Assembly: GCF_000186345.1 (NCBI RefSeq)
Contig: NC_014962.1
Coordinates: 806,001 to 870,000 of the forward strand
DNA length: 64,000 nucleotides
Origin: Isosphaera pallida ATCC 43644
GTDB taxonomy: Bacteria > Planctomycetota > Planctomycetia > Isosphaerales > Isosphaeraceae
Direction: 5' to 3'
Positions 11,397 to 36,928 of this stretch are shown piece by piece. How positions within the stretch are numbered: position 1 is the first letter of the stretch; each line of letters begins with the position of its first letter. The position numbers and the translations under genes were made by a program. The notes below the pieces were generated by a model that worked only from the letters and a program-made list of their open reading frames with translations, was not told the DNA's origin and made no database searches.

Positions 11397-11397
11397 C

Positions 11398-12642
11398 ATG
11401 ACGCCCGACTCACGTGTGAAGGTCGCCGTGGCGCTCGATCCGCCCGAGGAAGGCTGGCCGAGTATGGACCTAGTTGGTCACCAGCTGCGCGCCGAGTTGA
11501 CGCAGAACGATCCACATCGATCCCGCTTCGACATCTGCTGGATCGAGCCGCACTTGAAGCGTTGGATCTCTTGCCCGTTTGGGGCCGACTCCCGACTTGG
11601 CCGGGCGGCTTGGAGGGCGGATCGGTTGTGGGGGCGTCACTGGCAAGCAGTTCGCCTCGCGCGAAGGATTCTGAAACGCGAGGCCGCCGCGGGTCGTCCG
11701 CTCGAAGTGTTGCATGTCGCCGACCACACTTACGCTCAAGTCGCGTTGGCCGCCGATCCCGACATGGCGGTTGTTTGTCACTTGCACGATCTGAACGCCT
11801 TCCAACCGCTGCTCGATCCCCAACGTGATCCCCGCCCCTTCTGGTATCGCGCTTTGGTGCGGCGCATCGTCAAAGGATTGCGACGGGCCGAACGAGTGGT
11901 GTGCATCAGCGGGGCGACCCGGCGTCAAGCGATCGAGACCGGTTTGGTGTCAGCGGATCGTTTGGTGGTGGCTCACCTTGGTCCCAAGCCGTCGGTGGTG
12001 GCGGAACCGAAACCCGCGCTGCTCGAACGGGTTCGACGCGACTTAGGCATGGAGCGTGGCGGTCCCTGGTTGCTTCATGTCGGCTCGAACGTGCCGCGCA
12101 AACGGCTTGACCTCGTATTGGAGAGCCTGGCCGCAGCGCGTCGGGAATGGCCCGAGGCGCGTCTGATCAAGGTCGGTGATCGACTTACCCCCGCACAGAT
12201 GGAACGGGCTGGACGTTTGGGAGTGGCCGATGCCGTAATCCAGACCGGTGCGTTGTCCGAGGAGCGTTTAAGCGCAGTGTACCGCCTGGCCGATTTGACG
12301 TTGTTGCCCAGCGATGCGGAAGGATTCGGCCTGCCGATCGTCGAGGCATTGGCCGCGGGGTGCGCGGTGGTTGCCTCCGACCTGGAAGCGATCCGCGAGG
12401 TCGGTGGCGATCAAGTTCTCCGGGTTCCGCCTGGCGACGCCGACGCCTGGCGGGTTTGGACCTGTCGAGCGCTTCGGGATGAACGATCGGGGAATCCCGC
12501 ACTGGGAACGCAGCGCGAGCAGCTGCGCGCAGCGCGCCGAGCTTGGGCGGCCCGGTTCGGCTGGGATCAGCATGTCGCAGCGGTGACGCGGGCGTGGCTG
12601 GAGGCTCTAGAAGCGGCGCGACGCCGTTCGCGGCGTCGATGA
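11398..12642 (+). CDS. Glycosyltransferase, GT4/GT1-type
   Basis: A 414-residue GT-B glycosyltransferase. The C-terminal donor-binding half shows LLHVGSNVPRKRLDLVLE, then LLPSDAEGFGLPIVEALAAG, the EGFGLPxxEAxAxG signature of family 4. The N-terminal half is the variable acceptor domain. I start it at the ATG at 11398, immediately after the upstream stop (11394-11396), rather than at 11359, which overlaps the previous gene by 38 bases. The acceptor is unknown; a cell-envelope or exopolysaccharide glycan is the usual target. The Arg-rich tail (RRRSRRR) could assist membrane association. Confidence 0.82.
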   Translation: MTPDSRVKVAVALDPPEEGWPSMDLVGHQLRAELTQNDPHRSRFDICWIEPHLKRWISCPFGADSRLGRAAWRADRLWGRHWQAVRLARRILKREAAAGRPLEVLHVADHTYAQVALAADPDMAVVCHLHDLNAFQPLLDPQRDPRPFWYRALVRRIVKGLRRAERVVCISGATRRQAIETGLVSADRLVVAHLGPKPSVVAEPKPALLERVRRDLGMERGGPWLLHVGSNVPRKRLDLVLESLAAARREWPEARLIKVGDRLTPAQMERAGRLGVADAVIQTGALSEERLSAVYRLADLTLLPSDAEGFGLPIVEALAAGCAVVASDLEAIREVGGDQVLRVPPGDADAWRVWTCRALRDERSGNPALGTQREQLRAARRAWAARFGWDQHVAAVTRAWLEALEAARRRSRRR

Positions 12643-21957: not shown

Positions 21958-22314
21958 TCCCAACCGCGTTGGTTCGATGAGGGAATAAGGGCAACGAAAA
22001 TTGGTCGTGTGCTCGACGCTGCGACGCCGATGATTGCCAGCTAAGGACGCGGCCACGATCACGATGATGAACGGTGAATGCGGGAAGCCGAGCCGATGGC
22101 CGACGACGTGGTTTGACACGTTGCTGGAAAATTTGTTAAAGAGAAACGGCAACCATCCGCCGATCGAGTGAAGATGATCGGACGCGGCTCCACCCCGTTT
22201 GAAATGGTTTTAACTTTCAACGTCAGCCGTTCGGTTTGATCGTTCCGTTCCGTGCGTGATTCAACGGATCGTCGCAAGGTTGGAAGGCGAGCACCATCGG
22301 TCAAGGAGGTCACG
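21958..22314. other. Intergenic region before the PEP-CTERM pair
   Basis: This 357-bp stretch shows no gene. It is relatively AT-rich between about 22110 and 22220, where promoter elements for the PEP-CTERM gene could lie. A short CCAAC/GTTGG stem (21960-21972) follows the previous stop codon but is too small to call a terminator. Confidence 0.4.
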
Positions 22315-23223
22315 ATGTTGGGTTGGACGCCCTCCCGCGCAGTGTCAATGTTGATGTCGCTGGGCATGATGGTCGGGGTGTGGGAAGTGCCATTGGCCTC
22401 ACCCGCGGCCCGTGCGGAATTGATGGAGCCGACTCCGTTGCAAGCGGAGAAAGCCGAACAGATCGTCTCGGCGCTGAACTTCGAGCTCTACGGTCGATCC
22501 GACGCGCCGGGGATCTACTCCAACGGAAGTCTTCCAGTCATTTTCAACCTGTTTCAGACCAGTTTTGTTTTGAACAACCCCACGCCGTTCGGCTCGCCCA
22601 ACTGGTTGTCGCAAGATCGGATCGCGGCGGTGTCCGCTCAAGTGATTAGTACGGTGGGCAACGCGACTCACCTTGACTTAATCCGAATTGTGACGAAGTG
22701 GGGCACGCCCGAGGCGACCTTCTCTGTGCCGAACAACGTGAGTTTTTCCGGCGGGCGAGCCGGGGTGGGCGGTATTCAGTTGGGGACGTTCGGCGGGGAT
22801 CTGAACCCCAACCAACCAGGCTTCCTGGCACCCAACGTCCTTCATCGCCCGACTCAGAACCTTCGTTACGACGGCCAGGGCACACCCGCCATCGGTAATG
22901 ATTTTGGTCGGTTGATGTATCAATCCGACGGGGTTCAACTGACCGGCTTCCAAGTGCTGCTCAATACGTCTTACGTTGCCCGTGTCTTCGGCTTGCCCGC
23001 CCCGCCGGAACTCGGGTCGGTCGTTCTCAACCTGCAACGCGGCGGGGGATCGCGCATTGAGGCATTGATCTTTCGTCCTTTCGGCGATGACAGCAGCGTT
23101 GATCCCGTTCCCAACGACGGCGCTGTCCCCGAGCCGGGTTCAATCGTTTTGGCGTCACTGGCGTTGGTCGCGGCCGGCGTCTGGCGTGTTTATCGTCCAT
23201 CGCAACGCCAACCCATCCGGTGA
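22315..23223 (+). CDS. PEP-CTERM sorting domain protein (paralogue A)
   Basis: A 302-residue exported protein: signal peptide (about 1-34, ending ASPAARA), a strand-rich central domain, and a C-terminal sorting signal. That signal consists of VPEPGS, a hydrophobic helix (IVLASLALVAAGV) and a basic end (RVYRPSQRQ). PEP-CTERM tails are processed by an exosortase, and the proteins are delivered to the surface or extracellular matrix. An AGGAGG site (22304-22309) fixes the ATG at 22315. It is a close paralogue of the gene at 23747, sharing RIVTKWGTP, NVSFSGG, GFLAP, RVFGLPAP and NLQRGGG blocks. The central domain is not one I recognise. Confidence 0.85.
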   Translation: MLGWTPSRAVSMLMSLGMMVGVWEVPLASPAARAELMEPTPLQAEKAEQIVSALNFELYGRSDAPGIYSNGSLPVIFNLFQTSFVLNNPTPFGSPNWLSQDRIAAVSAQVISTVGNATHLDLIRIVTKWGTPEATFSVPNNVSFSGGRAGVGGIQLGTFGGDLNPNQPGFLAPNVLHRPTQNLRYDGQGTPAIGNDFGRLMYQSDGVQLTGFQVLLNTSYVARVFGLPAPPELGSVVLNLQRGGGSRIEALIFRPFGDDSSVDPVPNDGAVPEPGSIVLASLALVAAGVWRVYRPSQRQPIR

Positions 23224-23640
23224 ACCACCCCCACCCTTTCACCAACACTCGTGTCCAACGCCAAGCGAGAGACGTTTCGTTGATTGAATAAGTCGCGTTT
23301 TGCCGAAAGACGATGACGATTCCTCCGTTCGCGTCATACCCCTCATCTCTCATCGATAAAATGAGGGGTCTAGTGATCGTGAGGCGATCGTCGGCCGGGA
23401 TCGGGTGGAGTTGCGCTTCCCAAACGCCTTCGGGAGGCGCGATGGTGATTCCCCCCTCCCACATCGTCCGGCTCGGAAGCCTGCGGAACCATCAAAATGA
23501 GATCGAACTGCACTCGTCCATCCACCAAAGCTGAAGTGGGTGTCACCAATCCTCCGTAGACGACGTAAAACAACATTGGCGGTTCGTTCAACTCGACATA
23601 CGGGGTGACAAGCTCATCTGGCTGATGCGGGCCAGATCGT
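23224..23640 (-). pseudogene. Frameshifted minus-strand gene between the PEP-CTERM paralogues
   Basis: Reading the minus strand, two adjacent frames each look like genuine protein and join at a G6 run (forward C6, about 23451-23456). The upstream frame gives YVELNEPPMLFYVVYGG and GRVQFDLILMVPQASEPDD. After losing one G the reading continues as GGITIAPPEGVWEAQLHPIP, then RLTITRPLILSMRDEGYDAN and IVIVFRQNATYSINE. Neither half is long enough alone. The true start and end are unclear (the end may overlap the PEP-CTERM gene). It could be a recent pseudogene, a slippage-controlled gene or a sequencing error. I recognise no family. Confidence 0.45.
23338..23369. repeat. 9-bp perfect inverted repeat
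   Basis: ACCCCTCAT (23338-23346) and ATGAGGGGT (23361-23369) are exact reverse complements with a 14-base spacer. It lies 115 bases after the stop of PEP-CTERM paralogue A and inside the frameshifted minus-strand gene, so it could be a late terminator, an operator, or a coincidence of coding sequence. Confidence 0.4.
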
Positions 23641-23746
23641 GTTCCCGACCCTTTGGGAAGGGCGGCCGCCGTCAAGTTCCCGAGCGAACTTGACGAAAAT
23701 GCCGGGCAATCCTGAACGTGTTCCAACTTCAAAGGATCGCGGCGCG

Positions 23747-24577
23747 ATGCTGACTCGTCTCGCCATACTCGTACCAAGCCCCGGTGCGATCCCGCTCTTC
23801 GTTGTCCTGACGACATCGATCTGGGCGGGGTCTGCTCACGCCAATTTATTGACCGGCAACCCGCTGGATGACGCCTGGGAGTTTTTCGGAAATTCCGCGG
23901 ATCCGGGGATTTACGCGGCCGGAAGCTCCTCCATCAATTTCAACCTGTATCGAGCCGCATTCTTTGTGGACTCACCCTTGACGTTTGGTTCACCCAACTG
24001 GATGTCGCGGGATGTCGTGTTGGGAGTGGGAGGGGTGATTCTCAGCGCCTCGGGGAACGACGCGCGGTTGGATCTGATCCGCTTCGTCACCAAGTGGGGG
24101 ACTCCCCAAGCCACCTTCAGTCCAGGCAATGTCAGCTTCTCGGGTGGGGCCGGTGGGGCCGGCAGCCTCCAGTTGGCAACCTTGGGCGGCAATCTCGACC
24201 CTAATCTGTCCGGCTTCCTCGCGCCGGGGCTGCTGCACCGCTTCACCGACAATCGCCGTTTCGATGGAACCAGTTCGGTGCTTCTGGCCAACGACGATTT
24301 CGGACGCTTCATCTATCTGCCGAACGGCCCTAACCTGGGATCATTTCAGGTTTTGATTAACATCAGTTATGTTCAGCGCGTGTTTGGCCTCCCTGCACCG
24401 CAGGAATACACGGCAATGGTAATGAACTTGCAGCGTGGCGGGGGGGCGCGGATTGAAGCCATTGTGCTAAACACAGGAGTTCCCGAACCGGGGACGTTGA
24501 CTCTGGGGATGCTGATTGCGTCTGGAATGGTGGTGGCGGTGGCGCGTCGGCGTTCGATTCCAACCACTCGGACTTGA
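23747..24577 (+). CDS. PEP-CTERM sorting domain protein (paralogue B)
   Basis: A 276-residue exported protein with a signal peptide (about 1-32, ending GSAHA), the same central domain as the gene at 22315, and a C-terminal VPEPGT, hydrophobic helix and ARRRS tail. Shared blocks with paralogue A include LDLIRFVTKWGTPQATFS, NVSFSGG, GFLAPGLLHR, SYVQRVFGLPAP and NLQRGGGARIEA in the same order, so the two arose by duplication. The ATG at 23747 has AAAGGA ten bases upstream and begins the signal peptide. It converges on the polysaccharide operon across a strong hairpin. Exosortase processing is expected, but no exosortase gene lies in the window. Confidence 0.84.
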   Translation: MLTRLAILVPSPGAIPLFVVLTTSIWAGSAHANLLTGNPLDDAWEFFGNSADPGIYAAGSSSINFNLYRAAFFVDSPLTFGSPNWMSRDVVLGVGGVILSASGNDARLDLIRFVTKWGTPQATFSPGNVSFSGGAGGAGSLQLATLGGNLDPNLSGFLAPGLLHRFTDNRRFDGTSSVLLANDDFGRFIYLPNGPNLGSFQVLINISYVQRVFGLPAPQEYTAMVMNLQRGGGARIEAIVLNTGVPEPGTLTLGMLIASGMVVAVARRRSIPTTRT

Positions 24578-24672: not shown

Positions 24673-25515
24673 TCACACCTCAGCGTGTAACCAAAAACTA
24701 TGCCCCACTGGAAGTGGGAGGCCCCAACGTCCCACCCAAGCGGTTTCCCAGGCGGCGATGGCATGGGCCAATCGAGACGACCTGGTGCGATCGCCGTTAG
24801 AATCGAGAACCAATCCCCGACCGGCGGGATGTCCCGAAGCCGTTGGACTTCGTCTCCAACCCCGCTTCAGCAACGCGCGGAGTTCCTCGTAGAGCGATCC
24901 GACCGCGTTGGCCCGCGAGCTTCGTCGAACTCTCAAACCAGCGTTGGCGCACCATTTGAACAGCTCGCGTGGATGGATCGGCTGCTCCTCTCGCGCCACG
25001 GAAGAGACGCGGCATCGAAACAGGGGTGGAGCGTTGGAGCGCAACACCAGATGTCCCCCCGGCCGCAGGACGCGACTGATTTCCAAAAGCAGGGCGGGGC
25101 GACTGGCGATCGGCAGATGTTGAATTACGTCCAAACACATCACGAAATCAACGGATTGGCTTGCAACGGGTAAGCGTTCGCCCGCACCGCGGACGAGATA
25201 GGGAATCCGATTCTTTGAAATAGACGCCGATTGCCTGAAATGGGCGTGAATCAACGCTTCGGCAACTGGCTCCACTCCAATGACGCGCTGGAGTTCCGAA
25301 CGTCTGGCCAGTCGTTCCAAAGTCGCTCCCGCTCCGCAACCAAGATCCAACGCCACGCCGTTTCGCCGACCGATCAAGATACGATCCAGCCAAGCGGTTT
25401 CAATCGCCGCCATCAGGCGCCACCACCAATGGCCTTGCTCAAGATGAACAAGAATCCGAAAATAAAGGTGAGGATCTGTTTCGAGACGCGCGGAACCAAG
25501 AATAGTCATCGACAT
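24673..25515 (-). CDS. Class I SAM-dependent methyltransferase
   Basis: A 280-residue methyltransferase with motif I ALDLGCGAGATLERL (55-69), acidic loop GVEPVAEAL, a VMCLDVIQHL motif and the post-motif LRPGGHLVLRSN. This is the Methyltransf_11/UbiE-like layout. It is the last gene of the nine-gene operon. The start is at the ATG at 25515 or 25509; the latter overlaps the upstream stop as ATGA, and I use the first of the two. In a polysaccharide locus it may methylate a sugar or the chain end, as in some capsule systems; the acceptor is unknown. Confidence 0.78.
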   Translation of the reverse strand: MSMTILGSARLETDPHLYFRILVHLEQGHWWWRLMAAIETAWLDRILIGRRNGVALDLGCGAGATLERLARRSELQRVIGVEPVAEALIHAHFRQSASISKNRIPYLVRGAGERLPVASQSVDFVMCLDVIQHLPIASRPALLLEISRVLRPGGHLVLRSNAPPLFRCRVSSVAREEQPIHPRELFKWCANAGLRVRRSSRANAVGSLYEELRALLKRGWRRSPTASGHPAGRGLVLDSNGDRTRSSRLAHAIAAWETAWVGRWGLPLPVGHSFWLHAEV

Positions 25516-26612
25516 GGATTGGACTCGGAACGAATGGCGGTAAGTTGCCAAAGTGGTCCATACTCCGTCAGCAAACTACGAAGAAGAGACTGGCGACAGG
25601 CGACCGCGTAAACCGAATGCAGCCGCTCCCAACCATGCGCTGCTTGGGAGAGCCACCGTCGAGTCACGCTCGCGGGTTGCACCACGACGCTTGACCAGGC
25701 CGAACAGTCGAACCAGGAGGCCGCCTCCCGAGCAGTTCGACAGCGGGGTTTCCAAAACGGTGATGAAGGTGATGCGGAGGAGAAGATGCAGGGTGGTCGA
25801 AGAGACCGAGATTGGCGCACGCCGTGGGGATCGTCTAGCCATTGGCGTCGATTGGGCGACCACAGAATCACTCGGCCTCCCGGCCGGACGACACGCCGCA
25901 ACTCAGTCACCACCACTTGCGGGTCGTCAAGATGCTCCACCAGGGAGTCGGCCACGGCCGCATCGAACCAGCCGTGACGAAACGGCAGCCGTTCAGCTTG
26001 AGCGGCAATCAAGCGGATCGAAGCTCTGGCGGTATATCCAGAACCGATTGTCCGAGTAGATCCTGAAACAAAACCAAGCTCACGCAGTCGTCGTTTCGCC
26101 ACCACCAGCCAGCGCGATGCCAGATCGACTCCCTCCAGTCGCCAGTCGGATCGAACGCGGGCCGCCGCCGCCAAGAATCCGCCCGACCCGCAACCGATCT
26201 CCAGAACCCGTCCACCGTAAGGCACATGTTCACAAATTTGACTCACGAGACCTTCCGCTCGAACTTCCGCTCGATCCAGGTGAGCAAGGAACCGTTCGCG
26301 GCGGGGGTCGCCCGTGATGGCGTAATACACCCGAGCCAGGTCCAACGCGCTGAGGTGCTGACGTTGAGCCAGGGTGTCGAGCAGTTCAGCCCGCCGCCGC
26401 TCCGCGTCTAAAGGCAAGTAACGATCGGACGTATCCCGAACGTCCGGTAAACCCGCCGTCAGCGTGAGCAGACGGCCACATCGAGGGCATTCGTTCAGGC
26501 TTCCGTCTAAACGAGCGTCCAAGGGGGTCCAACACGACGGCTCGGGACAAATCAAGTCGTCCCAGTCCGCACGGATCCGTTTCTTGGTCACGCGGGGGAG
26601 CTTGATAACCAT
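25506..26612 (-). CDS. Methyltransferase with N-terminal zinc ribbon (Trm112-like)
   Basis: A 368-residue protein. Cys22, Cys27, Cys42 and Cys45 form a zinc-ribbon-like module ahead of a class I methyltransferase domain with VLEIGCGSGGFLAAA (136-150), VADSLVEHLDD and RPGGRVILWSPNR. The ATG at 26612 has GGGAGAA upstream and overlaps the deacetylase gene by 25 bases. Oddity: residues of about 265-320, after DDPH, are Ser/Pro/Arg/Cys-rich and unlike a methyltransferase, while the end (LLTEYGPLWQLTAIR) looks normal again. In an alternative frame this stretch holds a hydrophobic LHLLLRITFITVLETPL, so paired frameshifts are possible. Confidence 0.72.
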   Translation of the reverse strand: MVIKLPRVTKKRIRADWDDLICPEPSCWTPLDARLDGSLNECPRCGRLLTLTAGLPDVRDTSDRYLPLDAERRRAELLDTLAQRQHLSALDLARVYYAITGDPRRERFLAHLDRAEVRAEGLVSQICEHVPYGGRVLEIGCGSGGFLAAAARVRSDWRLEGVDLASRWLVVAKRRLRELGFVSGSTRTIGSGYTARASIRLIAAQAERLPFRHGWFDAAVADSLVEHLDDPQVVVTELRRVVRPGGRVILWSPNRRQWLDDPHGVRQSRSLRPPCIFSSASPSSPFWKPRCRTAREAASWFDCSAWSSVVVQPASVTRRWLSQAAHGWERLHSVYAVACRQSLLRSLLTEYGPLWQLTAIRSESNPCR

Positions 26613-27376
26613 CGCCGCGTCTTCTCCCACGAGGTCCGCAGTTGGCGAATCGAGCGTCGAGGGACCATCCACCAGTCTCCCCACGACCCCATCCAGCGCG
26701 CGGCCACATCGGGATTGCGAAGGTGATACGCATCGATTCGTGGCAAAACGAGCGGACAATCGCTCGGACGGGGACGTCCCAACCGTGTCCCCAGACCGAT
26801 TCGATGAAACTCCCCCACAATCCGTCGGGTCCGTCGATCCCAGTCGCCATAGGGATAAGCAAACGGGGCATCATCGAACGCTGCGGACAACTCCGCGGCG
26901 ATCCGTTCCCGCGCGCGGAGAAGATCGTCGCGGAGCGTTGCCGAATCCAATTGAGTGACGGGATGATGATCCCACCCGTGCGAAGCAAAGCGAATCCCCC
27001 GCTCAGCCAATTCCCGACACTCCGACCAGGTCAACAACCGTTGCCGGGGAACCCTGATACGACATCCAGGAAAATCATTCCATCCTCCCACACGTCCCGC
27101 GACCAGAAATACGGTGGCCGACAATCCCAACCGCTCCAAAATCGGAACCGCGCGGCGAATCGTGCATAACCCGTCGTCGAACGTGAGAATCATGGTCTGA
27201 TCAGAAATGGGTTGTGAATGCTGGTTGTGATCGCTGAAATTGATCGATTTCCATCCTCGTTCGACCAATCCGTTTAAAAGTCGCTCGAACCGATCTGGCT
27301 CCAGCGAGATCGGCGACCTTGACGTGTCCAGTGAATGAAACATGAGAATCGCCGGTACGTTCATGTGTAAAATCAT
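26588..27376 (-). CDS. NodB-type polysaccharide deacetylase
   Basis: A 262-residue carbohydrate-esterase-4 protein. The NodB metal and catalytic motifs are MILTFDDG (TFDDG at 65-69), FASHGWDHHP with His133/His137/His138, and FAYPYGDWDRR. These enzymes remove N- or O-acetyl groups from amino-sugar polymers and work in exopolysaccharide, peptidoglycan or lipid-linked sugar metabolism. No signal peptide is evident, suggesting cytoplasmic action on a lipid-linked or nucleotide-linked intermediate. Its ATG overlaps the upstream oxidoreductase stop as ATGA (27373-27376). Confidence 0.85.
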   Translation of the reverse strand: MILHMNVPAILMFHSLDTSRSPISLEPDRFERLLNGLVERGWKSINFSDHNQHSQPISDQTMILTFDDGLCTIRRAVPILERLGLSATVFLVAGRVGGWNDFPGCRIRVPRQRLLTWSECRELAERGIRFASHGWDHHPVTQLDSATLRDDLLRARERIAAELSAAFDDAPFAYPYGDWDRRTRRIVGEFHRIGLGTRLGRPRPSDCPLVLPRIDAYHLRNPDVAARWMGSWGDWWMVPRRSIRQLRTSWEKTRRWLSSSPA

Positions 27377-28506
27377 CTGTCTAGTCCAGCACTCATTCGT
27401 TGTTGAGATGGCGTGTTGTTTGAAACGACTTGTGGGGGAGGAGTGACCATCGCTTGGGCGACGGAAACCTTACGTCCGGTTCGACAAGCAAGTTCCACTG
27501 CTTCGACCATTTGGACAGCCCGCAACCCATCGTATCCCGTAGCGAGCGAAGGAAGGGATTGGGGTCGCGGAGATGCGCTGAACTGTACAAGCTCGCGGAC
27601 CAGCGACCGTTCCCCGCCATGCCGAGCTCGGTGAAGCCGTTCCCGGATTCGGGCAGCGAGAAATCGATCCCGATGGATTCGTCCTCGCTGATCAAGTCGA
27701 ATCAGTGACCACGGAGTGGTTTGGACTTCGACACGTCCCTGCTCCCCAACGGCCCGCAATTCGAGATAGCCTCGGGTTTTGCGCCAGGAGGCAGTGATTT
27801 GACAACACGCCCCCGACGCATAGTGGAAGGTGGCGTGTGTCTCCAAGTCGATCGCGTCGGGTTGAGGGGTCAAAGGGATCGACCAGGCCGACACATCGAT
27901 GGGTTCACCCAGAAGAAGTCGAGCCAAATCGCAGGCGTGGGAGCCGTTGTCGAGGAAGGCTCCACCACCCGACAATGATCGCTTGCCATGCCAACCGGCG
28001 AGAAACTCGGGAGACGCGGCGTGACCGATGGCGATTTCGAGGGATTGCAGTTTGCCGATCGCGCCCGACGCGATCAACTGGATCGCCTTTTCGATAGGAG
28101 GAAAAAAGCGGTGATTGAATCCGACCGCAAGATGCAAGCGCATCCGATTAGACAGATCAAGAAGTCGAAAAGCGTGATCGCTGCTGGTAGTGATTGGTTT
28201 CTCAATCAGAATATTCAAACCAGCCTCAAGACAGAGATAAGCGGATTCCACATGGTCGGTGTGAGGTGTGGCGATTGCCGCTGCGTCAAACTCGTGTCGA
28301 TCAAGCGCGTCTTGAAGACCGCGAATCATGGGAACGCCTAGATCGTTAGCCAAACGATGGGCGATTTCCGGCTCACAATCGTAAACGGCCGCGAGACGAT
28401 GTCCCGGTGTGGCAGCGATCGACTTGGCTCGGCGGCGTCCCTGCCCGCCGCAGCCAATCACCAACCAACGGGTTTGAGCATGACGATGCGACGAAGGACC
28501 GGGCAT
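27373..28506 (-). CDS. Gfo/Idh/MocA family oxidoreductase
   Basis: A 377-residue NAD(P)-dependent sugar oxidoreductase: Rossmann fingerprint VIGCGGQGRRRA (17-28), IEKPITTSS (101-109) with the family catalytic Lys in EKP, and a C-terminal Gfo/Idh/MocA sandwich domain with GGGAFLDNGSHACDLARLLL. Such enzymes oxidise, reduce or epimerise nucleotide sugars and inositols; in polysaccharide loci they often make modified amino or uronic sugars. The ATG at 28506 has GGAG eight bases upstream; the open frame before it lacks Rossmann-type sequence. It lies 53 bases downstream of the AlgJ-like gene. Confidence 0.85.
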   Translation of the reverse strand: MPGPSSHRHAQTRWLVIGCGGQGRRRAKSIAATPGHRLAAVYDCEPEIAHRLANDLGVPMIRGLQDALDRHEFDAAAIATPHTDHVESAYLCLEAGLNILIEKPITTSSDHAFRLLDLSNRMRLHLAVGFNHRFFPPIEKAIQLIASGAIGKLQSLEIAIGHAASPEFLAGWHGKRSLSGGGAFLDNGSHACDLARLLLGEPIDVSAWSIPLTPQPDAIDLETHATFHYASGACCQITASWRKTRGYLELRAVGEQGRVEVQTTPWSLIRLDQRGRIHRDRFLAARIRERLHRARHGGERSLVRELVQFSASPRPQSLPSLATGYDGLRAVQMVEAVELACRTGRKVSVAQAMVTPPPQVVSNNTPSQQRMSAGLDR

Positions 28507-28559
28507 TAAACGACTCCAGAATCCGTGAGAGTAAGAGAGCAGTTGGTCGTGAAGAACGG

Positions 28560-29855
28560 TCAACGGAGCCGAGGAGACGACTCCTCGAAGGGGCGGGCTA
28601 GATTCCACGTGGGATGGAGTCTTCCTGATGCGTCGGCGTCGGGTTGAGAGGGTTCCGAAGACGGCGGAAGGAGTTGAGGTGACTGAAGCGCGAGGAACCA
28701 ACGTTCGGAAAGAGCCTGAATGACAAGATCGGGCTTGAACTCCTCAATCAGTTTCGCGGGGAACTCATTCTGGAAGACACCAATGATTTCAGAACATTCA
28801 TGAGCGAGCAGGCGAGTCGCGGACGTAAAAAACGAATCATGGAGAAGCACCACGCGCGGACGATTCCGCAACGAAGCCGCCTTGCAACGATAATGGTTGA
28901 TAGTCGAATCAGACGATTCAACTTGGTTGACCGTATGGGGATGATTCCAGATCAACGAGTCGAACGGTTCGTCAAAGGGACGCGACAGCCCAGTTCGCCG
29001 AATCCACGGTTCGGACAACCCAGCGATTCGGGTCAGGTCGAAAGGCTGCTCTTTGGGGATGGTTGAATCGACTTGAAACAGGTCAACCCAAGAGTCGGAT
29101 GATTCTGATTCGCTTGAATCGCCGATTTGACGTAGGCGAGCCACGATCGGTCTTAACCCGTGTATCATCCCTAGCAGATTCCAATGAGAATCCGTTCGGT
29201 AAGCCAAACATTGACCCGATTGAGCGATTTGACTTAAAAAAATACGCAAGTCAATCAACTCAAACCGCTTGTCAGGTTGAAGTTGGTTAAGAGCAAGTTC
29301 TTGATTGAACGTGCCGATCTCCTCATTCCAACGTTCTAAAAAACGAGCAGGAGCAGATTCGGGATGGATGGTTTGCTTCTCAGGCGCGAGAACGACCCAA
29401 AGCGGGATGCCTCGCGCAGCCAGCCAGTCACGGCGTTGACGAAGGCGATCGAGGTTGGTTTGCACGATCCGCTGGCGAAGAGGTTCATTCCAATTCGGTC
29501 GAATCGAGTGCGAGGCATCCAGATAAAGCCAATGATTCGATCCCAAGACCACCAGACCCGAAGGGAGTTGACCGAAGAGGCCATACTTCCACAACAAACG
29601 AACCTGAAGCGCCTCGCAACGGAATCCAATCCGATCAAGCAAGGCGTTTTCCAGTTCGCTGGGCATCCGTTTCCAGTGCGACATCTTCTGAGGAAACGAT
29701 GGAAACGGTCTGGCGAGACGTTGTTCCGGCATGAGCAAACAGGGAGAGTCGAGCCAGCGCGTGGTCAAGACGGGTAAATAGAGAGTGGCCACGAAGAGGA
29801 TCACCAAAAACCACTGGGCCCAGCGAGGCGACGTCGGCGTGCTGGAGTCGAACAT
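28560..29855 (-). CDS. AlgJ/AlgX-like SGNH acetyltransferase-associated protein
   Basis: A 431-residue protein with an N-terminal membrane anchor (about 14-32) and an extracytoplasmic SGNH-hydrolase-like domain. The catalytic DxHW of the AlgJ/AlgX group is DSHW at 222-225, and the nucleophile is probably Ser341 in VVLLHDSFF. In alginate and related polymers these proteins move acetyl groups, delivered by an MBOAT partner, onto the chain in the periplasm. The MBOAT gene lies 18 bases upstream, which supports this pairing. Base composition is noticeably lower in GC than in surrounding genes (29 of 60 bases in 28861-28920). Confidence 0.85.
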   Translation of the reverse strand: MFDSSTPTSPRWAQWFLVILFVATLYLPVLTTRWLDSPCLLMPEQRLARPFPSFPQKMSHWKRMPSELENALLDRIGFRCEALQVRLLWKYGLFGQLPSGLVVLGSNHWLYLDASHSIRPNWNEPLRQRIVQTNLDRLRQRRDWLAARGIPLWVVLAPEKQTIHPESAPARFLERWNEEIGTFNQELALNQLQPDKRFELIDLRIFLSQIAQSGQCLAYRTDSHWNLLGMIHGLRPIVARLRQIGDSSESESSDSWVDLFQVDSTIPKEQPFDLTRIAGLSEPWIRRTGLSRPFDEPFDSLIWNHPHTVNQVESSDSTINHYRCKAASLRNRPRVVLLHDSFFTSATRLLAHECSEIIGVFQNEFPAKLIEEFKPDLVIQALSERWFLALQSPQLLPPSSEPSQPDADASGRLHPTWNLARPFEESSPRLR

Positions 29856-29873
29856 GCCGAGAATCCTCCCGTG

Positions 29874-31325
29874 TCAAAACTTAAAGTAAATGAATGGATT
29901 ATACGTTCCTGAAACGAGAAGAGCTGATGAAAGCCAAAGCAAACCGGTCAACGCTAGGGTTCGCGACAGGATTAGGGGGGATTGGAGGAGCAATGCGAGG
30001 CGTGAGGTCTGAACGCGATGGAAAATCTGTCCGATCCAAGGAGCCCAAGGGTACATGAGGATCCACCCGGTCAAGAGTGTGACAAGGCATTCCCAATCCC
30101 AATATTTGTCAATGGGATGCGAGCTACTTCCCAAACCAAAAAGAGCTCCGTAGTATTCGAAGGCGTAAGCAAGCGAATCGGCGCGGAAGAGGACAAAGGT
30201 GAGCATTGCCATGATTGGCACGTATAAGAATCCCAAAGGCCAAATCTTCTGAATGAGCCGTTCCAGACCGACCCGCTCTAGAATCAACACGACCCCGTGG
30301 GCCGTTCCCCAGAGAATGAAAGTCCAGCCCGCGCCGTGCCACAAGCCGCAAAGCAAGAAGACAATAGCCAGGTTGCGCGCTGTTCGGATCGGACCCTGAC
30401 GGTTGCCGCCCAGAGGGATATAGAGATAGTCACGGAACCAACTGGAGAGCGAGATATGCCATCGTCTCCAGAAGTCGGTCATCGACGTGGCGGCCAGAGG
30501 ATGACGGAAATTCTCGGGAAAATCGAAGCCGAACAGCTTTCCCAAGCCAATCGCCATATCGGAATACCCCGAGAAGTCGTAGTAGAGTTGCAAGGTGTAA
30601 CAGGCGATCCCAAGCCAGGCCACTTCCGCGGAGAGCGACCCAGCAGGGGTGTCAAAGATCGCGTCGGCGGTGGTCGCCAATGTGTTGGCGATCAAGACTT
30701 TCTTGGACAGGCCGACGATGAACCGTTCAACGCCCTGAGTAAATTGTTCTAATCGAATCGAACGTTTATCAAGAAATCGTGCAACGTCGATGTATCGCAC
30801 AATGGGGCCGGCGATCAACTGAGGAAAAAAAGAAAGGTATGTACTGAACTTGATCAAATTTCGCTGGGCCTCCACCGAACCCCGCGCAACGTCGATCACA
30901 TAAGAGAGGCCCTGAAATGTAAAGAACGAAATTCCAATCGGGAGGTGGATATCGTTGTGAGGTAGGGCAGGTAGTCCCATGAGGCGAGCGGCTTCGGAGA
31001 GGTTGTCGAAGAAGAAGCCCGCGTATTTGAACCAACAGAGGATGCCGAGATTGAAGAAGGCGGAAGACACCATCACCTGACGCACCCGACGTTGGGACCG
31101 CGTGGGGTCGGCGTTGTTTCGAGCCTGTTGGGCCGCCAGGCCCAGTGTGTAATTCCCAACGATAGAGCCCAGAAAAAGCAGGGTGTAGCCGAATTCCCCC
31201 CAGGCATAAAAAAAGAGGCTCGAAGTCAATAGCCACAGATTTCGCCATCGTTGGGGCAGGATGAGTCCAAATCCTAAAACGACGGGAAGAAAGAAGAAAA
31301 GGAAAAATGGTGAGGCGAAGATCAC
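29874..31325 (-). CDS. MBOAT O-acyltransferase, AlgI-like
   Basis: A 483-residue polytopic membrane protein of the MBOAT family. Multiple hydrophobic helices are obvious from the N terminus. The diagnostic histidines are His330 in FLLCGLWHGAGWTF and His290 in WRRWHISLSSWFRDYLYIPL. AlgI-type proteins pass acetyl groups across the inner membrane for O-acetylation of exported polysaccharide. The GTG start overlaps the upstream glycosyltransferase stop as GTGA (31322-31325), and the AlgJ-like partner follows directly, making a two-component O-acetylation module. Confidence 0.92.
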   Translation of the reverse strand: MIFASPFFLFFFLPVVLGFGLILPQRWRNLWLLTSSLFFYAWGEFGYTLLFLGSIVGNYTLGLAAQQARNNADPTRSQRRVRQVMVSSAFFNLGILCWFKYAGFFFDNLSEAARLMGLPALPHNDIHLPIGISFFTFQGLSYVIDVARGSVEAQRNLIKFSTYLSFFPQLIAGPIVRYIDVARFLDKRSIRLEQFTQGVERFIVGLSKKVLIANTLATTADAIFDTPAGSLSAEVAWLGIACYTLQLYYDFSGYSDMAIGLGKLFGFDFPENFRHPLAATSMTDFWRRWHISLSSWFRDYLYIPLGGNRQGPIRTARNLAIVFLLCGLWHGAGWTFILWGTAHGVVLILERVGLERLIQKIWPLGFLYVPIMAMLTFVLFRADSLAYAFEYYGALFGLGSSSHPIDKYWDWECLVTLLTGWILMYPWAPWIGQIFHRVQTSRLALLLQSPLILSRTLALTGLLWLSSALLVSGTYNPFIYFKF

Positions 31326-32218
31326 AGTTCAGCACTCCTTTCGGCGTGAATTTGCGAACGTAACAACGCGGGCTTCAGCAGTCCTACCGCCTCACCGCAT
31401 GACCAAGCCAGCGCAAGACCAAGAAGATCACCGATGTCTCGAAATTCTAACAGAATACACTGATGTCTCATTTGATGAAGGCTTCGATACATTAGCGCTC
31501 CTGCGGCTATTGGCGCTCCCAACGAACGAATCAGGCGGTTGGGCCAGCCCCATTGATGGATTGCCCCGCGTTTTGCCCCAAATTGTCGAGCGTGCCAGTA
31601 ACGGTTTCTCATCATCGCCGCCCGATCCAACCCTCCTCTATAAGCGAGAGTCAGGTTTGGAACAAAACAAAATTGATATTGGTGAGAAACAAGAGTGCGC
31701 TGAACGTCGCATTCCCAGAATCCATCGGCCCAAGACTGGCGAATCTCTGGCCGCAGGAGCGCGGAGCGACGATAGGCCGCGTGTTCACCGGGTGGGAACA
31801 GGTAGGGAAGGTCGGTTCGCCCGTAACGCGCGTATCTCAAAGCATAAACCGAGCGATCGAGTGAGGAGAGCTGATCCCAACCCACCCCGGGAACGATTGC
31901 TCCGCCGATTCCCGCGATCGATTCATCGACTGAAGCAATCTGTCTTTGAATCTCTTCCATCCAACCATTATGAATCTCAAGATTCAATGAGGTGAAGACA
32001 ACCCAGTCGGCCCGGGCGCGTTGTAGTCCAGCCGCCCAAAGCTCAGGAACCAGTGGAGGAGTCCGATCGTTGACCAACTTGGAGGCGTTCGCAGTCACGA
32101 CGATGGGATTTCCCAAAGGGGCGATGCGTTGACACGCCTGGTCGATCCAACCACGCAACCGAGGACGGACTGCTGGGGCGAACTCCCACTCGGCTACAGC
32201 GAGCACCACATCGATCAT
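31322..32218 (-). CDS. Glycosyltransferase family 2-like protein
   Basis: A 298-residue protein with a GT-A-like core: VDVV-type start strand (IDVVLAVAEW), then DWVVFTSLNLEIHNGWMEEI at the DxD position, a GEHAAYRRSALL acceptor loop and DGFWECDVQR (ED-like catalytic motif). A C-terminal hydrophobic stretch suggests membrane association. The canonical DxD is replaced by SLNLE, so the donor site is unusual and activity is less certain than for the gene at 33467. It overlaps its upstream and downstream neighbours by four bases (ATGA and GTGA), indicating translational coupling. Confidence 0.65.
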   Translation of the reverse strand: MIDVVLAVAEWEFAPAVRPRLRGWIDQACQRIAPLGNPIVVTANASKLVNDRTPPLVPELWAAGLQRARADWVVFTSLNLEIHNGWMEEIQRQIASVDESIAGIGGAIVPGVGWDQLSSLDRSVYALRYARYGRTDLPYLFPPGEHAAYRRSALLRPEIRQSWADGFWECDVQRTLVSHQYQFCFVPNLTLAYRGGLDRAAMMRNRYWHARQFGAKRGAIHQWGWPNRLIRSLGAPIAAGALMYRSLHQMRHQCILLEFRDIGDLLGLALAWSCGEAVGLLKPALLRSQIHAERSAEL

Positions 32219-33480
32219 GGTTGTGCCGTCCTCGATGGGGTGTGGGGAGCGATATCGGTGTCCGAGACGACCGCTTCAACTCGATGGGGACCTCGAAGCG
32301 TAGGGAGATGGTCCAAAGGTGCTGGAGTTTGAGACGAATTGCTTAAAAGCATATCGGGGTAAAACCAAGATTCGCTCACTTTGCGCCAAAATGGCTGAAC
32401 AAAATGACATGAATGAGGTCGGCATGGGTGGCGAACCGATTCGAGAGGATCACCCACGAGGTCGATTTGATCGAGTTGAGCCCAGCCGAGACCACGTGTT
32501 TGCGCTTCAGCGAGATAACCGATCTGAAGGGGATCAAAGCCCATGACCGCGGCGGCCACGGCGTCTACCGCCACCGGGTCGGTCCCCGCCAGGGCGACTC
32601 CAAGACGGATGGGTGTACCCTGACGTGGACCTTCGCCATGCATCGCCTCGAAACCATCCAAAACGGTGAGATGGGGCGCGGTCAAGGCAGCCAATCTTGC
32701 CAGATTCTCATGCATCGCCGCAACCGATTTGAGGAAGGCGCGATCGGCGGGTGAGAGACGTTCATAAGCGTTTGGACCAAGACGTCCTGTGCATATGTTG
32801 ACGAGCGTGCGAACTCGTCCCAGACCTCGGGTAAGTTGCCGTACCAAGACGTCGTCGCGTTTGAGGAAGGCGCGAACCGCCCCTCGCCAACCACGCGTGC
32901 CGGTGGTGGTCCCGCCTTCGTAACCGTGCATTTGCACACGGTCCAGTGGATGAATGGCGGAGAGCATGTTTTTGATACCAAAGGTGACCCCAGCGGTCAT
33001 ATGTGTTTTCATCAACGCCACTGACACACGAAATGGGGCTTCGACAACCGTCTGGGAAACCCGCGCCTTTCTTAGCGAGCCATCGATGGCTCTGAGAGGC
33101 AATTCAATCCAGTTGTGTTCGTCGTGATTGAGGTCGAAAAACCTGACCGGGCGAAGTGCGGTCTCGCGGTCATGGCCGAACCGTCGCCAGCCCGCCGGAG
33201 CGTCGGTGGCCCCCTCGGCGACGGTGATCGGCGCGCCGCCGTTGGCCGCCAGGAGGGCGTCCAGAGTGGCCGAAAGGGCGTCGCGGTGAGTTGAGGGAGC
33301 CTGGCGTCGATGGCTCACAAGGTTGATTTTCACCAAGATGGGTTGGCCTGGTCTAAGACGTCGCGCCAATTCCGGCTGGATCAGCCCTAGCGCCTCGGCG
33401 ATCGCGCCTCGCCGGCGTTGGGAGCGAACCAAGGCCACCTTCGAGCGATTCGCGGCGAGTTGGGGATCAGCGGGTCGCAT
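32215..33480 (-). CDS. DUF362 domain protein
   Basis: A 421-residue protein of the DUF362 family, recognised from VKINLVSHRR (the family's K-N strand), VALMKTHMTAGVTFGIKNML, and LDGFEAMHGEGPRQGTPIRL with AGTDPVAVDAVAAAVMGFDP. Family members have no agreed activity; some carry ferredoxin domains, which this one lacks. Its ATG-side end overlaps the upstream glycosyltransferase by 14 bases, and its stop overlaps the next gene as ATGA, so it is firmly embedded in the polysaccharide operon. The last 70 residues (Pro/His/Ser-rich) extend beyond the recognisable domain. I do not assign a function. Confidence 0.82.
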   Translation of the reverse strand: MRPADPQLAANRSKVALVRSQRRRGAIAEALGLIQPELARRLRPGQPILVKINLVSHRRQAPSTHRDALSATLDALLAANGGAPITVAEGATDAPAGWRRFGHDRETALRPVRFFDLNHDEHNWIELPLRAIDGSLRKARVSQTVVEAPFRVSVALMKTHMTAGVTFGIKNMLSAIHPLDRVQMHGYEGGTTTGTRGWRGAVRAFLKRDDVLVRQLTRGLGRVRTLVNICTGRLGPNAYERLSPADRAFLKSVAAMHENLARLAALTAPHLTVLDGFEAMHGEGPRQGTPIRLGVALAGTDPVAVDAVAAAVMGFDPLQIGYLAEAQTRGLGWAQLDQIDLVGDPLESVRHPCRPHSCHFVQPFWRKVSESWFYPDMLLSNSSQTPAPLDHLPTLRGPHRVEAVVSDTDIAPHTPSRTAQP

Positions 33481-34606
33481 GAGGAGGCTCCACCCATTGA
33501 CGAGTGCCGGTGGGTTGGTGGGGCGCGGGAATCGTGGCGATGGGGATTGGTCGCAATCGGGTGTCGATTCCCGCCCAGCGGATCACCAGCCACGCGATCG
33601 GTACAGATGCCAGGCAGCAACCGTAATACACCAGGAGGCACGGCACGCAGCCTAACGCGAATCCTAGACCGAAGCGTCGAGCAGCAAATTGAAAAAAGGA
33701 CCTATTAATCAGAATCATCACGAATGTTGTTAATGCAAATCCCAGCGCAAATCCTGGATACCAGAACGTTGCCGGCAGGCAAGCCACACCGGCCGCCACC
33801 AGGGCGGCGGCCCATTTCTGGCGAGGATCGAGATTGAGGTCAGTTTGGGGCGCGGTTCGACTTCGGAGCAGAATAAGCCAGGGAACACCACGTTTAAAGA
33901 TGTCGGTTCGAATGGTGTCGAACAAGGTCCAGCGTTTGAGGTGGGTTGCTTGGATCGCGGGCATCAGTTGAAGGCGTCCGCCTTGATCGGTCAAGCGGTA
34001 GCCGAACTCAATGTCTTCAATCGAAGGACGTGGATAGCGTCGGGCGTCGAAACCACCAAGTTCCAAGAAGCGGGCGCGCCGGAGGACTCCCACGCCAGTC
34101 CAGAAGGTGGAAGCGGGGCGCGCGCCTTCAGCGTCGAATTCTCCACGATGGTGAATGTGATGATGCCAGAGGTTGCGGAAGCGGCTGAGCAAGCCGACGG
34201 CCTCGGGATGATCGTCGTAGGAGCCGAACACGCCGTCAATTTCCGGGTGCCGCTCCAGATGGGCCACGGCACGTGCCAGGGCGTCGCGGTGCGGGATCAC
34301 ATCGGCGTCGAAGAAGGCCAGGAGATCGCCGCTGGCGGCTTGAGCTCCGGTGTTACGGGCCGCCGAGGGTCCCAACGCGCGGTCGTGACGCACCACCCGC
34401 GCCCCGTGCTGGGTAGCGACATCGCTGGTAGCGTCGGTCGAGCCGTCATCCACGACGATGAGTTCATCGGGCGTGCGGTCACCGGCGCGGATCGCCACGA
34501 GACAGCGTTTGAGGTCGTGGGCGGCGTTGTGAGCCGGCACGACCACGCTGACCCGAAGGTTTGGGTGGGTTGTTGGCGGGCGGTCGTCCATGACCGGGCG
34601 TCCCAT
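33467..34606 (-). CDS. Membrane-associated family 2 glycosyltransferase
   Basis: A 379-residue GT2 enzyme. The GT-A core shows VSVVVPAHNAAHDL (19-32), VVDDGSTDAT (51-60), the donor/metal DAD in LAFFDADVIP (100-102) and a PSIEDIEFGYRL catalytic-base region. Two or more transmembrane helices occupy about 285-350 (ALVAAGVACLPATFW, FALGFALTTFVMILI). It probably adds a sugar to a lipid-linked intermediate at the membrane. The start is at the ATG at 34606 or at 34591, the latter having a better GGGA spacing. It is the first gene of the nine-gene operon, and two tandem hairpins lie in its leader. Confidence 0.83.
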   Translation of the reverse strand: MGRPVMDDRPPTTHPNLRVSVVVPAHNAAHDLKRCLVAIRAGDRTPDELIVVDDGSTDATSDVATQHGARVVRHDRALGPSAARNTGAQAASGDLLAFFDADVIPHRDALARAVAHLERHPEIDGVFGSYDDHPEAVGLLSRFRNLWHHHIHHRGEFDAEGARPASTFWTGVGVLRRARFLELGGFDARRYPRPSIEDIEFGYRLTDQGGRLQLMPAIQATHLKRWTLFDTIRTDIFKRGVPWLILLRSRTAPQTDLNLDPRQKWAAALVAAGVACLPATFWYPGFALGFALTTFVMILINRSFFQFAARRFGLGFALGCVPCLLVYYGCCLASVPIAWLVIRWAGIDTRLRPIPIATIPAPHQPTGTRQWVEPPHATR

Positions 34607-34667: not shown

Positions 34668-34894
34668 GGGACGCAACAGCGCAGAGCGAACCTAGCCGAG
34701 ATCGCCTGGACTGTCAACCTCGATCGGAGGCGGAGAAGGAGCGTTGCTGTTAACCTTAATTGATGGTTTGGTGGGATCGAGCGGTTTTGATGGAGTTTCG
34801 AGGTTGTTGGGGCGATTTCTGAAAGGGGGGATTTCACCTGAGCGCGGATGGAAGTGGTGCTCCACACCAACGCGGTCTCGCCAGGAGTGGATTC

Positions 34895-36928
34895 ATGCGC
34901 AGCCAAACTTCTCGAAGGCGAACGATTCCAAGGTTGGAGAGCTGCGAGCCGCGGACTATGCTCAGCTCGGCTCCCGGAGAGCTGGCGGCCGACGAGGTTC
35001 GGACTCTCTTGGACCGGGCTGCGGCGGCCAGCTCCAGCGAGGACGCGATTATCGCGGTGGTCGATCGCGGCGGGCGGATTCTCGGAGTCAAGGTCGAGGG
35101 CCAAGTCGCTCCCGAACTGGTTCAGGACCCAGCCCTACTCAGCTTCGCCATCGACGGCGCGGTGGCCAAGGCCCGCACCGCGGCCTTCTTTGCCAACAAC
35201 GAAGCCCCGTTGACCTCGCGTACCATCAACGCCTTGTCGCAATCGACCATCACGCAGCGCATGGTGGAATCGAACCCCAACGACGTGGACCCCGACTCCA
35301 CCCGACGTGGTCCCGGCGTGGTGGCGGCAGTTGGTCTAAACGCACACTTTCCCGCCGATGTGAACTTTACGCCGCAAGTGGACCTGTTCAACATCGAATT
35401 CACGAATCGCGACGCCACCCTTCACCCCGGACCCGATCGGATTCGCGGCACCGACGACGACATCGTGCTTGCGTTCCGGTTTAACGCTCATCCCGAGTTC
35501 ATTCCTAAGGAGATTCTTGAGGAGGGGTTGTTCCCGCCGCCGCCCGATTCGTATGGATTCGTGTCGGGACTCGCGCCGGAAGCCTCGCCGCGGGGAATCG
35601 CCACCCTGCCCGGCGGTCTGCCGATTGTGAGGGCCGGGGTGGGCGTGGTTGGAGGTCTGGGGGTTTTTTTCCCAGGCACGACTGGATATGCCAGTGAGGA
35701 ACATTCCCGGCTCAACGATTTTCCTATCCCATCGACGAAATTGGATCGCTCGGTCGAGGCCGAGTTCATCGCCATCGCCGCGTTGGGAGGGGTTGGAGCG
35801 ACGGATGACCGGGTGAACGTCTCGTTCGGCGAGTTGGACGGGATTCCGCCGGTCGAGGGAATCGTGCTGCCCTTCGGTACGATCACCTTGGTGGGAATCA
35901 CGTTGGACATCTACGGTCCCGGTGGCACCCAGGGGATTCAGCGGATTCTGGAGTTTGCGCGTGCTCATTTGAGTCCCGGTCAGGCTGAGACCGGCTTCTT
36001 CGCGCCGATCGCGCCGATTCCCAACGATGTGGTCAATCCCTCGCCCGAGACGACCCCCGAGTTCTTCTTCGCCGCGGGTCGTCCGGTGGGTGAGGGGATG
36101 CTGGTGCGTCCTCACGACGGCGTGGGTGGGCTGACCGCCGAGGATGTCAAGACGATCATCAATCAGGGTAGGGGGCGCGCCTCGCGGGTTCGGGCGGCGA
36201 TTCGTCTGCCCCAGTCCCGCCCAGCGCGGTTCGTTTACGCTGTGACCGACCTCGACGGGAATGTGATTGGACTCTTTCGCGATCCGGATGCGACGATCTT
36301 TTCGTTGGACGTGGCGGTGGCCAAGGCACGCAACGCGGCCTATTATGCTGATCCCGCCAAACTCCAGCAAGCCGATCGCTTGCCCGGTGTGCCGCTAGGA
36401 ACCGCCTTCACCGCGCGGAGCTTCCGCTATCTGGCCGGCCCGCGGTTCCCCCAATCAATTGACGGCCGACCGCCGGGACCGTTCTCGGTCCTCAACGATG
36501 GCGGATCGAGCCTGCGCAATGGGGTCAACGTTGGTCCCCCCCTGCCGGCGTCGGCCTTCCAATCCGTGGTGGGTTACGACATCTTCAACCCCGGCACGAA
36601 CTTCCGCGACACCTCCACCCCCGTGGAGAATCAAAACGGTGTCGTCTTCTTTCCCGGAAGTCTGCCGCTCTACAAGGATGTCAACGGCGACGGCGTTCCT
36701 GAACTGGTGGGAGGATTAGGCATCTCGGGCGACGGGGTCGATCAGGACGACATCGTGACGATCGCCGCCTCACGCGGGTTCCGACCCACGCCACCCATCC
36801 TTCGAGCGGATCAGACGTTCGTAAGAGGCGTGCGGCTACCCTTCGTGCATTTCAATCGCAACCCCTCGCTTCAGATTCCCAAGGACGCTCCTGGAGTGGC
36901 GATTGGTTCGCGTTCGCGCCGACCATGA
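34895..36928 (+). CDS. Surface protein with two HbpS/GlcG-like heme-degrading domains
   Basis: A 677-residue protein. The N terminus has LESCEPRTMLSS, close to the planctomycete LEPR-xLL export-associated motif. Two copies of an HbpS/GlcG-type (Haem_degrading, DUF336) segment follow: about 30-110 (IIAVVDRGGRILGVKVEG, then DGAVAKARTAAFFA) and about 420-500 (VYAVTDLDGNVIGLFRDP, then DVAVAKARNAAYYA). Long Gly/Pro-rich regions separate them. HbpS-type domains bind heme or are fused to oxidoreductases; the substrate here is unknown. AGGAG eight bases before the ATG at 34895 supports the start. It is divergent from the polysaccharide operon. Confidence 0.8.
   Translation: MRSQTSRRRTIPRLESCEPRTMLSSAPGELAADEVRTLLDRAAAASSSEDAIIAVVDRGGRILGVKVEGQVAPELVQDPALLSFAIDGAVAKARTAAFFANNEAPLTSRTINALSQSTITQRMVESNPNDVDPDSTRRGPGVVAAVGLNAHFPADVNFTPQVDLFNIEFTNRDATLHPGPDRIRGTDDDIVLAFRFNAHPEFIPKEILEEGLFPPPPDSYGFVSGLAPEASPRGIATLPGGLPIVRAGVGVVGGLGVFFPGTTGYASEEHSRLNDFPIPSTKLDRSVEAEFIAIAALGGVGATDDRVNVSFGELDGIPPVEGIVLPFGTITLVGITLDIYGPGGTQGIQRILEFARAHLSPGQAETGFFAPIAPIPNDVVNPSPETTPEFFFAAGRPVGEGMLVRPHDGVGGLTAEDVKTIINQGRGRASRVRAAIRLPQSRPARFVYAVTDLDGNVIGLFRDPDATIFSLDVAVAKARNAAYYADPAKLQQADRLPGVPLGTAFTARSFRYLAGPRFPQSIDGRPPGPFSVLNDGGSSLRNGVNVGPPLPASAFQSVVGYDIFNPGTNFRDTSTPVENQNGVVFFPGSLPLYKDVNGDGVPELVGGLGISGDGVDQDDIVTIAASRGFRPTPPILRADQTFVRGVRLPFVHFNRNPSLQIPKDAPGVAIGSRSRRP

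Follow-up and report, generated by a model that had tools for sequence, protein, structure and literature searches.

A nine-gene operon of Isosphaera pallida, probably for a surface glycan, combines a family core containing DUF362 with an acetylation pair

Isosphaera pallida is a hot-spring bacterium. A window of 64,000 nucleotides from strain ATCC 43644 (contig NC_014962.1, positions 806,001 to 870,000) was analyzed, and nine minus-strand open reading frames (ORFs) lying in a row at 24673-34606 were investigated; the presence of this gene set was confirmed. The operon probably builds and decorates a surface glycan, which would undergo modification in the cytoplasm and receive O-acetyl groups outside. 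Judged from sequence comparison, it appears to be composite, with a surface-glycan core that some members of the family Isosphaeraceae share, partners that have split off, and an acetylation pair. This reading was based on the core order kept in relatives, GT4 homologues elsewhere in the genome, intact motifs, tight gene junctions, and one related genome in which a GT2 relative adjoins an MBOAT-AlgJ pair. The activities, order of steps, common product and transfer route described below are those we infer from gene content, order, conservation, motifs and predicted folds. A sequence-only reading of the window had proposed an extracellular polysaccharide. The assembly and modification of a glycan held up in our analysis, whereas the polymer was only inferred, with no polymerase identified; therefore, the product may also be a lipid-linked oligosaccharide or a glycolipid.

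The ORF coordinates (Table 1) agreed with the nine consecutive genes, six overlaps and two gaps described earlier. Junctions were computed with ATG starts at 34606 for GT2, 28506 for the Gfo/Idh/MocA oxidoreductase (Gfo), 26612 for the zinc-ribbon methyltransferase (MTzn) and 25515 for the last methyltransferase (MT). The overlaps were 14 bases at GT2/DUF362, 4 at DUF362/GT2-like (ATGA), 4 at GT2-like/MBOAT (GTGA), 4 at Gfo/NodB, 25 at NodB/MTzn and 10 at MTzn/MT. The gaps were 18 bases at MBOAT/AlgJ and 53 bases at AlgJ/Gfo. Pfam matches agreed with the proposed gene order from GT2 to the methyltransferase, in which the GT2-like protein had no match but was modeled with a GT-A fold.

Conservation was investigated by a DUF362 search of 58 relatives and the I. 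pallida genome itself. Twenty loci were fetched, one per genome and all from the same family (L048-L063, L071-L074), and weaker matches beyond these were left out of the locus comparison. Gfo, NodB and MTzn accompanied DUF362 in ten of the 20 loci (L048-L054, L057-L059). The last MT was also present in nine of these ten, at the same cluster end, and the tenth (L048) stopped at a contig edge. All seven core genes occurred in this order in five loci (L049-L052, L054), including those of Singulisphaera acidiphila DSM 18658 (L051/L089) and S. sp. GP187 (L052/L090). GT2 relatives, 44-51% identical, adjoined DUF362 in 17 of the 20 loci. Among the ten fuller loci, GT2 lay beside DUF362 in seven and GT2-like was detected in six; L053 had no GT2-like match, L057-L059 had neither match, and another gene stood between DUF362 and Gfo in L057. 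Eight reduced loci (L060-L063, L071-L074) kept GT2-DUF362 without NodB or methyltransferases. All eight then carried a member of the GT4-type cluster c0 (one checked by Pfam), with a Gfo match of 32% in L073 and weaker ones of 24-27% in L063, L071 and L072. L055 and L056 had GT2-DUF362 only; a contig edge truncates L056. Neither MBOAT nor AlgJ was found in any of the 20 loci. By the criterion set earlier, that genes scattered in relatives would speak against the operon, the core held in ten of the 20 loci and MBOAT/AlgJ did not. The nine genes did not behave as one conserved unit, and elsewhere MBOAT and AlgJ were neighbors of each other.

The two proteins had been proposed as an acetylation pair, and the motifs of both partners supported this assignment. 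MBOAT matched DltB-type structures (E 2.5e-28), and its C-terminus, FIYFKF, fitted the FXYXXF acyl-shuttle motif, in which all 22 MBOATs compared, the window's included, ended. D222, H224 and S341 of the AlgJ-like protein (D-x-H and Ser) were invariant in 8/8 aligned proteins, and its match to the AlgJ structure 4o8v was weak (E 0.0011). With the domains, FIYFKF and the Ser-His-Asp triad all present, the acetylation relay looks intact. The excerpted text of PMC12148441 describes the MBOAT-SGNH relay mechanism, in which the Tyr of FXYXXF accepts acetyl in PatA. In the operon, MBOAT would take acetyl from acetyl-CoA, with the Tyr in its FIYFKF as acceptor, and pass it to the AlgJ-like protein, which would O-acetylate the glycan.

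Among the loci compared, only I. pallida had the MBOAT/AlgJ pair in this operon position. AlgJ relatives were found at E 1e-12 in 14 of the 391 further genomes drawn from the phylum. AlgJ adjoined MBOAT in nine of the ten relatives with an AlgJ match (including G004, G013 and G027; the exception was G058). Seven AlgJ loci were fetched from relatives; six had an adjacent MBOAT, and none had a DUF362 match at E 1e-6. The simplest reading is that MBOAT and AlgJ were added to an older family core in one lineage. The I. pallida MBOAT fell into an 8-row clade (100/99) of the same family and other families of the class, which was unresolved inside; therefore, donor and direction were not assignable from the tree. 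It seems unlikely, on balance, that the two genes are passengers in the operon and acetylate another polymer. Their absence from the 20 DUF362 loci, their adjacency to each other in relatives, and the two gaps flanking AlgJ where the other six junctions overlap would fit passengers. Against this, the start of MBOAT and the stop of GT2-like overlap by 4 bases, and no second MBOAT of this kind was found in the genome at E 1e-80. In addition, G017 has an MBOAT-AlgJ pair with a divergent neighbor that is a relative of the operon GT2 (L067:7402-11680, a locus with no DUF362 match), and this relative grouped with the GT2s of five reduced loci (95/94). GC composition was considered as proof of an MBOAT/AlgJ insertion and was rejected, since low third-position GC spans the whole operon (0.53-0.67, compared with 0.62-0.80 in other long window ORFs, a set that includes spurious antisense ORFs).

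For the cytoplasmic steps, we propose that GT2, the GT-A-fold protein and two GT4 enzymes would assemble an oligosaccharide on a lipid carrier. The DxD and ED motifs of GT2 were kept in 10/10 aligned proteins. The GT2-like protein gave no Pfam match at E 0.01, and a search of solved structures with its sequence profile gave no significant match. Its model (predicted local distance difference test, pLDDT, 75.5; predicted template modeling score, pTM, 0.76) was a GT-A fold, with Z 15.0 to TarP 6h4m (root-mean-square deviation, rmsd, 2.9; 174 residues aligned), which bore out the label given earlier. In relatives, GT4a followed MT in all nine clusters with sequence there, and GT4b was present in the seven of nine that were long enough. 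Homologues of both were found together in I. pallida within C2:1,761,661-1,764,269, beside purD and 0.92 Mb from the operon. They were 42-51% (GT4a) and 55-62% (GT4b) identical to the counterparts of six relatives.

Gfo would oxidize or epimerize, NodB would N-deacetylate, and the two methyltransferases would methylate sugars of the glycan; the DUF362 protein would most likely act on a sugar or sugar-acid precursor. The motifs were intact. EKP of Gfo, DD and HxxxH of NodB, and the four cysteines of MTzn were each kept in 11/11 aligned proteins, and NodB matched PgaB-type structures (E 2.8e-7). A transmembrane (TM) scan of NodB found no TM-like window, as in enzymes acting on cytoplasmic lipid-linked sugars. 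The oligosaccharide would then be transferred across the membrane. In seven of ten relatives' clusters, a Wzx-type gene stood between MTzn and MT; four were typical and three were diverged, the latter recognized by the Wzx profile at E 2e-16 to 7e-11. The profile matched 12/12 relatives once or twice each, four of the 12 being its own sources. The single match of G002, G010, G018 and G020 lay away from the DUF362 locus, and therefore a distant Wzx copy is usual.

Several observations weighed against a surface-glycan operon. Protein and profile searches of the I. pallida genome (99.97% complete) did not recover the Wzx-type flippase of the family. Only one other PF01943 protein was detected, at 75 kb, where its gene was overlapped by a gene without a Pfam match, with TilS, SpoIIE-type and PMT-type genes no more than 8 kb away. 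The nine genes included no polymerase or initiating transferase, and no genome-wide Wzy search was made. NodB and methyltransferase genes were missing from ten of the 20 loci, of which L056 ends at a contig edge. There was no GT2 or GT2-like match near DUF362 in G005, G022 and G032 (L057-L059), and in the latter two (L058, L059) DUF362 was encoded on the opposite strand at a distance of about 4 kb. The DxD motif was missing from GT2-like proteins in 7/7 aligned rows, and the GT2-like protein may not be a catalyst. Pfam confirmed the earlier statement that the nine contain neither polymerase nor flippase. The partners predicted elsewhere were found in part, as the two GT4 genes were located and the family flippase was not.

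These points also bear on the nature of the product. The core may make a glycolipid or a short lipid- or protein-linked oligosaccharide and no polymer, a serious alternative that we rate a little below even and that is compatible with our preferred explanation, which commits to no chain length. No polymerase was found among the nine or among 20 neighboring proteins of relatives given to Pfam, and the best NCBIfam match of GT4a was MshA (86 bits vs a cut-off of 462). The NodB result above would also fit such a product. However, the MBOAT-SGNH pairs named in the excerpted text of PMC12148441 act on polymers, namely peptidoglycan, alginate, cellulose and wall polysaccharides. The Wzx-type gene of the relatives fits both readings.

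The most surprising part of the operon is DUF362, the chemistry of which is testable. The AlphaFold model (pLDDT 80.7, pTM 0.81; residues 376-421 poor) aligned with malate racemase 6d6z at Z 18.4 (rmsd 2.8, 215 residues). It gave Z 13.9-18.4 to 12 entries (LarA, malate racemase, LarA-like, 4nar), and the next unrelated fold scored 5.5. The predicted fold is that of the LarA N-domain, as in the nickel-using lactate racemases. Foldseek ranked LarA of I. pallida first (E 1.1e-6) with a TM-score of only 0.37; the LarA of this genome was identical over 425 matched residues to the crystallized 9eia. The best alignment covered the N-domain only (6d6z residues 34-265), and the alignments to 2yjg_B and 6c1w_A extended to 421-422 and comprised some 220 residues. 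At the sequence level, the operon protein matched PF04015 only and not PF09861, the LarA profile, at E 0.01, and it was not among the four PF09861 places in the genome. A search of solved structures with the DUF362 profile gave no LarA match (best E 0.14). According to the excerpted text of PMC11770544, DUF362 and LarA belong to one Pfam clan, CL0471. Two I. pallida genes, at G000:C2:4287367-4287786 and 356743-357114, matched both PF04015 and PF09861 (Lar_N) weakly and are a possible link between the families.

Conserved residues were then compared. K158, H160, K170, N171 and H185 were identical in 14/14 aligned orthologues. All 15 tested positions were identical in 13 orthologues, as were the 13 covered positions in the fourteenth. 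The pattern K-x-H-x9-K-N was the same in 14/14 orthologues and in the 5/5 other-subfamily DUF362 proteins aligned there. These counts leave out two I. pallida DUF362 loci, L075 (residues 158-171 uncovered) and L076 (no match, E 1e-5). In LarA, we take Lys182 to be the cofactor lysine, His172 the neighboring catalytic residue and His106 the second catalytic histidine. Hhalign placed H160/K170 of DUF362 on H172/K182 of LarA, with H106 in a gap. This alignment was not significant (probability 0.28%, E 0.22), and the register therefore rests on fold and spacing, not on sequence similarity.

Lys170 was lost in 8/8 reduced loci and His160 in five of the eight. Loss of Lys170 and loss of the modification genes gave three independent pairs on the best GT2 tree and one on well-supported branches; with at most three independent contrasts, no significance is possible for this correlation. 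L055 (G002) kept Lys170 without adjoining modification genes, which was against a strict rule, and L056 (G010), which ends at a contig edge, also kept it. Tentatively, and with clearly less than even probability, DUF362 could lack chemistry of its own and instead bind the adjacent GT2 or act as its scaffold. The GT2-DUF362 adjacency in the eight loci without Lys170 means that the pair outlives the putative active site, and the restriction of the best fold alignment to the LarA N-domain would agree with such a role. On the other hand, the identity of the tested positions among the orthologues argues against a scaffold.

An active role on a precursor was the preferred reading. In one specific form, which we regard as quite improbable, DUF362 proteins would form a second enzyme branch with a nickel-pincer or similar covalent cofactor, and one of them in Isosphaeraceae, together with Gfo, would alter a precursor sugar of the surface glycan in its stereochemistry or redox state. 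If so, loss of Lys170 in the eight reduced loci without NodB and methyltransferases would mark the loss of that sugar. LarC co-occurrence was tried as a test of this idea and set aside as uninformative, with LarC present in I. pallida and in 56/59 genomes overall. DUF362 was present in 5/14 control genomes; LarC was found in four of these five and in two of the nine without DUF362. Bacteroides ihuae and G021 (a genome only 68% complete) had DUF362 without a LarC match, against the nickel-pincer idea. Group f3 has six genomes, and in four of them (G038, G047, G051, G056) LarC lay divergently beside a different DUF362 gene (Table 1). This was a hint only, because one inherited arrangement can explain it. 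In plasmids, DUF362 gave one partial match only. Another I. pallida DUF362 protein (L163:7124-8224, minus strand, ~4.99 Mb) began with SRRGFL, a twin-arginine-like sequence that would be compatible with export of the protein with a cofactor already in place.

The operon was compared with known systems. As in AlgI/AlgJ and PatA/PatB, an MBOAT with an FXYXXF C-terminus adjoins an SGNH protein with D-x-H and Ser. Unlike those loci, the pair lies inside a family-specific glycan core with DUF362, and no AlgF, AlgX or synthase is among the nine. DUF362 resembles the LarA superfamily (nickel-pincer nucleotide racemases, PF09861) in its N-domain fold, its clan, and a His and a Lys ten residues apart; it differs in belonging to another Pfam family, and the LarA C-terminal domain was unmatched in the best alignment. 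Wzx-dependent polysaccharide loci share the GT2/GT4 enzymes, deacetylase and methyltransferases, and in relatives the PF01943 flippase. In contrast to such loci, no polymerase was seen, the searches of I. pallida did not recover the family flippase, and DUF362 is present.

No title or abstract opening in a literature search for an earlier description named this cluster, and the excerpted DUF362 literature stated no function for the domain. Nine CAZyme gene clusters were counted in Paludisphaera borealis, of the same family, in the excerpted part of PMC5352709, whose main text contained no occurrence of DUF362, MBOAT, acyltransferase or exopolysaccharide. Through this cluster, one subfamily of DUF362 becomes linked with a defined group of genes for sugar modification; residues likely to be important are indicated as well, and natural versions lacking Lys170 can serve as controls. 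Binding of a nickel-pincer cofactor by DUF362, if it occurs, would extend this chemistry to the making of glycans. The gene set further suggests a way in which an established glycan pathway can acquire an acetylation pair.

Table 1. Features of the operon and of the LarC/DUF362 neighborhoods (window positions unless a locus or genome is named)
Feature	Coordinates	Strand	Evidence
GT2 glycosyltransferase, two C-terminal TM-like segments	33467..34606	-	PF00535 E 1.8e-31
DUF362 protein, predicted LarA N-domain fold	32215..33480	-	PF04015 E 2.3e-37
GT2-like protein, predicted GT-A fold without DxD	31322..32218	-	model only
MBOAT acyltransferase, C-terminal FIYFKF	29874..31325	-	PF03062 E 4.5e-35
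AlgJ/AlgX-like SGNH protein	28560..29855	-	PF16822 E 4.8e-13
Gfo/Idh/MocA oxidoreductase	27373..28506	-	PF01408, PF22725
NodB-type deacetylase	26588..27376	-	PF01522 E 9.6e-22
S-adenosylmethionine (SAM) methyltransferase with N-terminal zinc ribbon (MTzn)	25506..26612	-	PF08241 E 1.3e-17
SAM methyltransferase (MT)	24673..25515	-	PF08241 E 7.7e-19
Promoter-like TTGACA-N17-TAGGTT, upstream of GT2	34689..34717	-	found post hoc
LarC/DUF362 divergent neighbors	L157:6108-9378; L158:6693-9918; L159:5881-9213; G047:C1:568010-570991		

The promoter-like sequence upstream of GT2 sits in a 288-base divergent gap and was absent from the list of the consensus scan. That scan gave 7 sites vs 3.6 expected, and the terminator scan gave 15 vs 12.8 expected. 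Rfam and tRNA scans of the window gave no matches. Across the same gap, divergent from the operon, a 677-residue protein with an HbpS-like domain match is encoded on the plus strand (34895-36928). Two similar secreted-looking proteins (22252-23223 and 23639-24577, plus strand) are convergent with the operon end, and their C-termini are of a type that we take to be PEP-CTERM-like. Farther off on the plus strand, a GT4 ORF (11359-12642) overlaps an ORF for a Cys/Met metabolism pyridoxal phosphate enzyme (10182-11396) by 38 bases.

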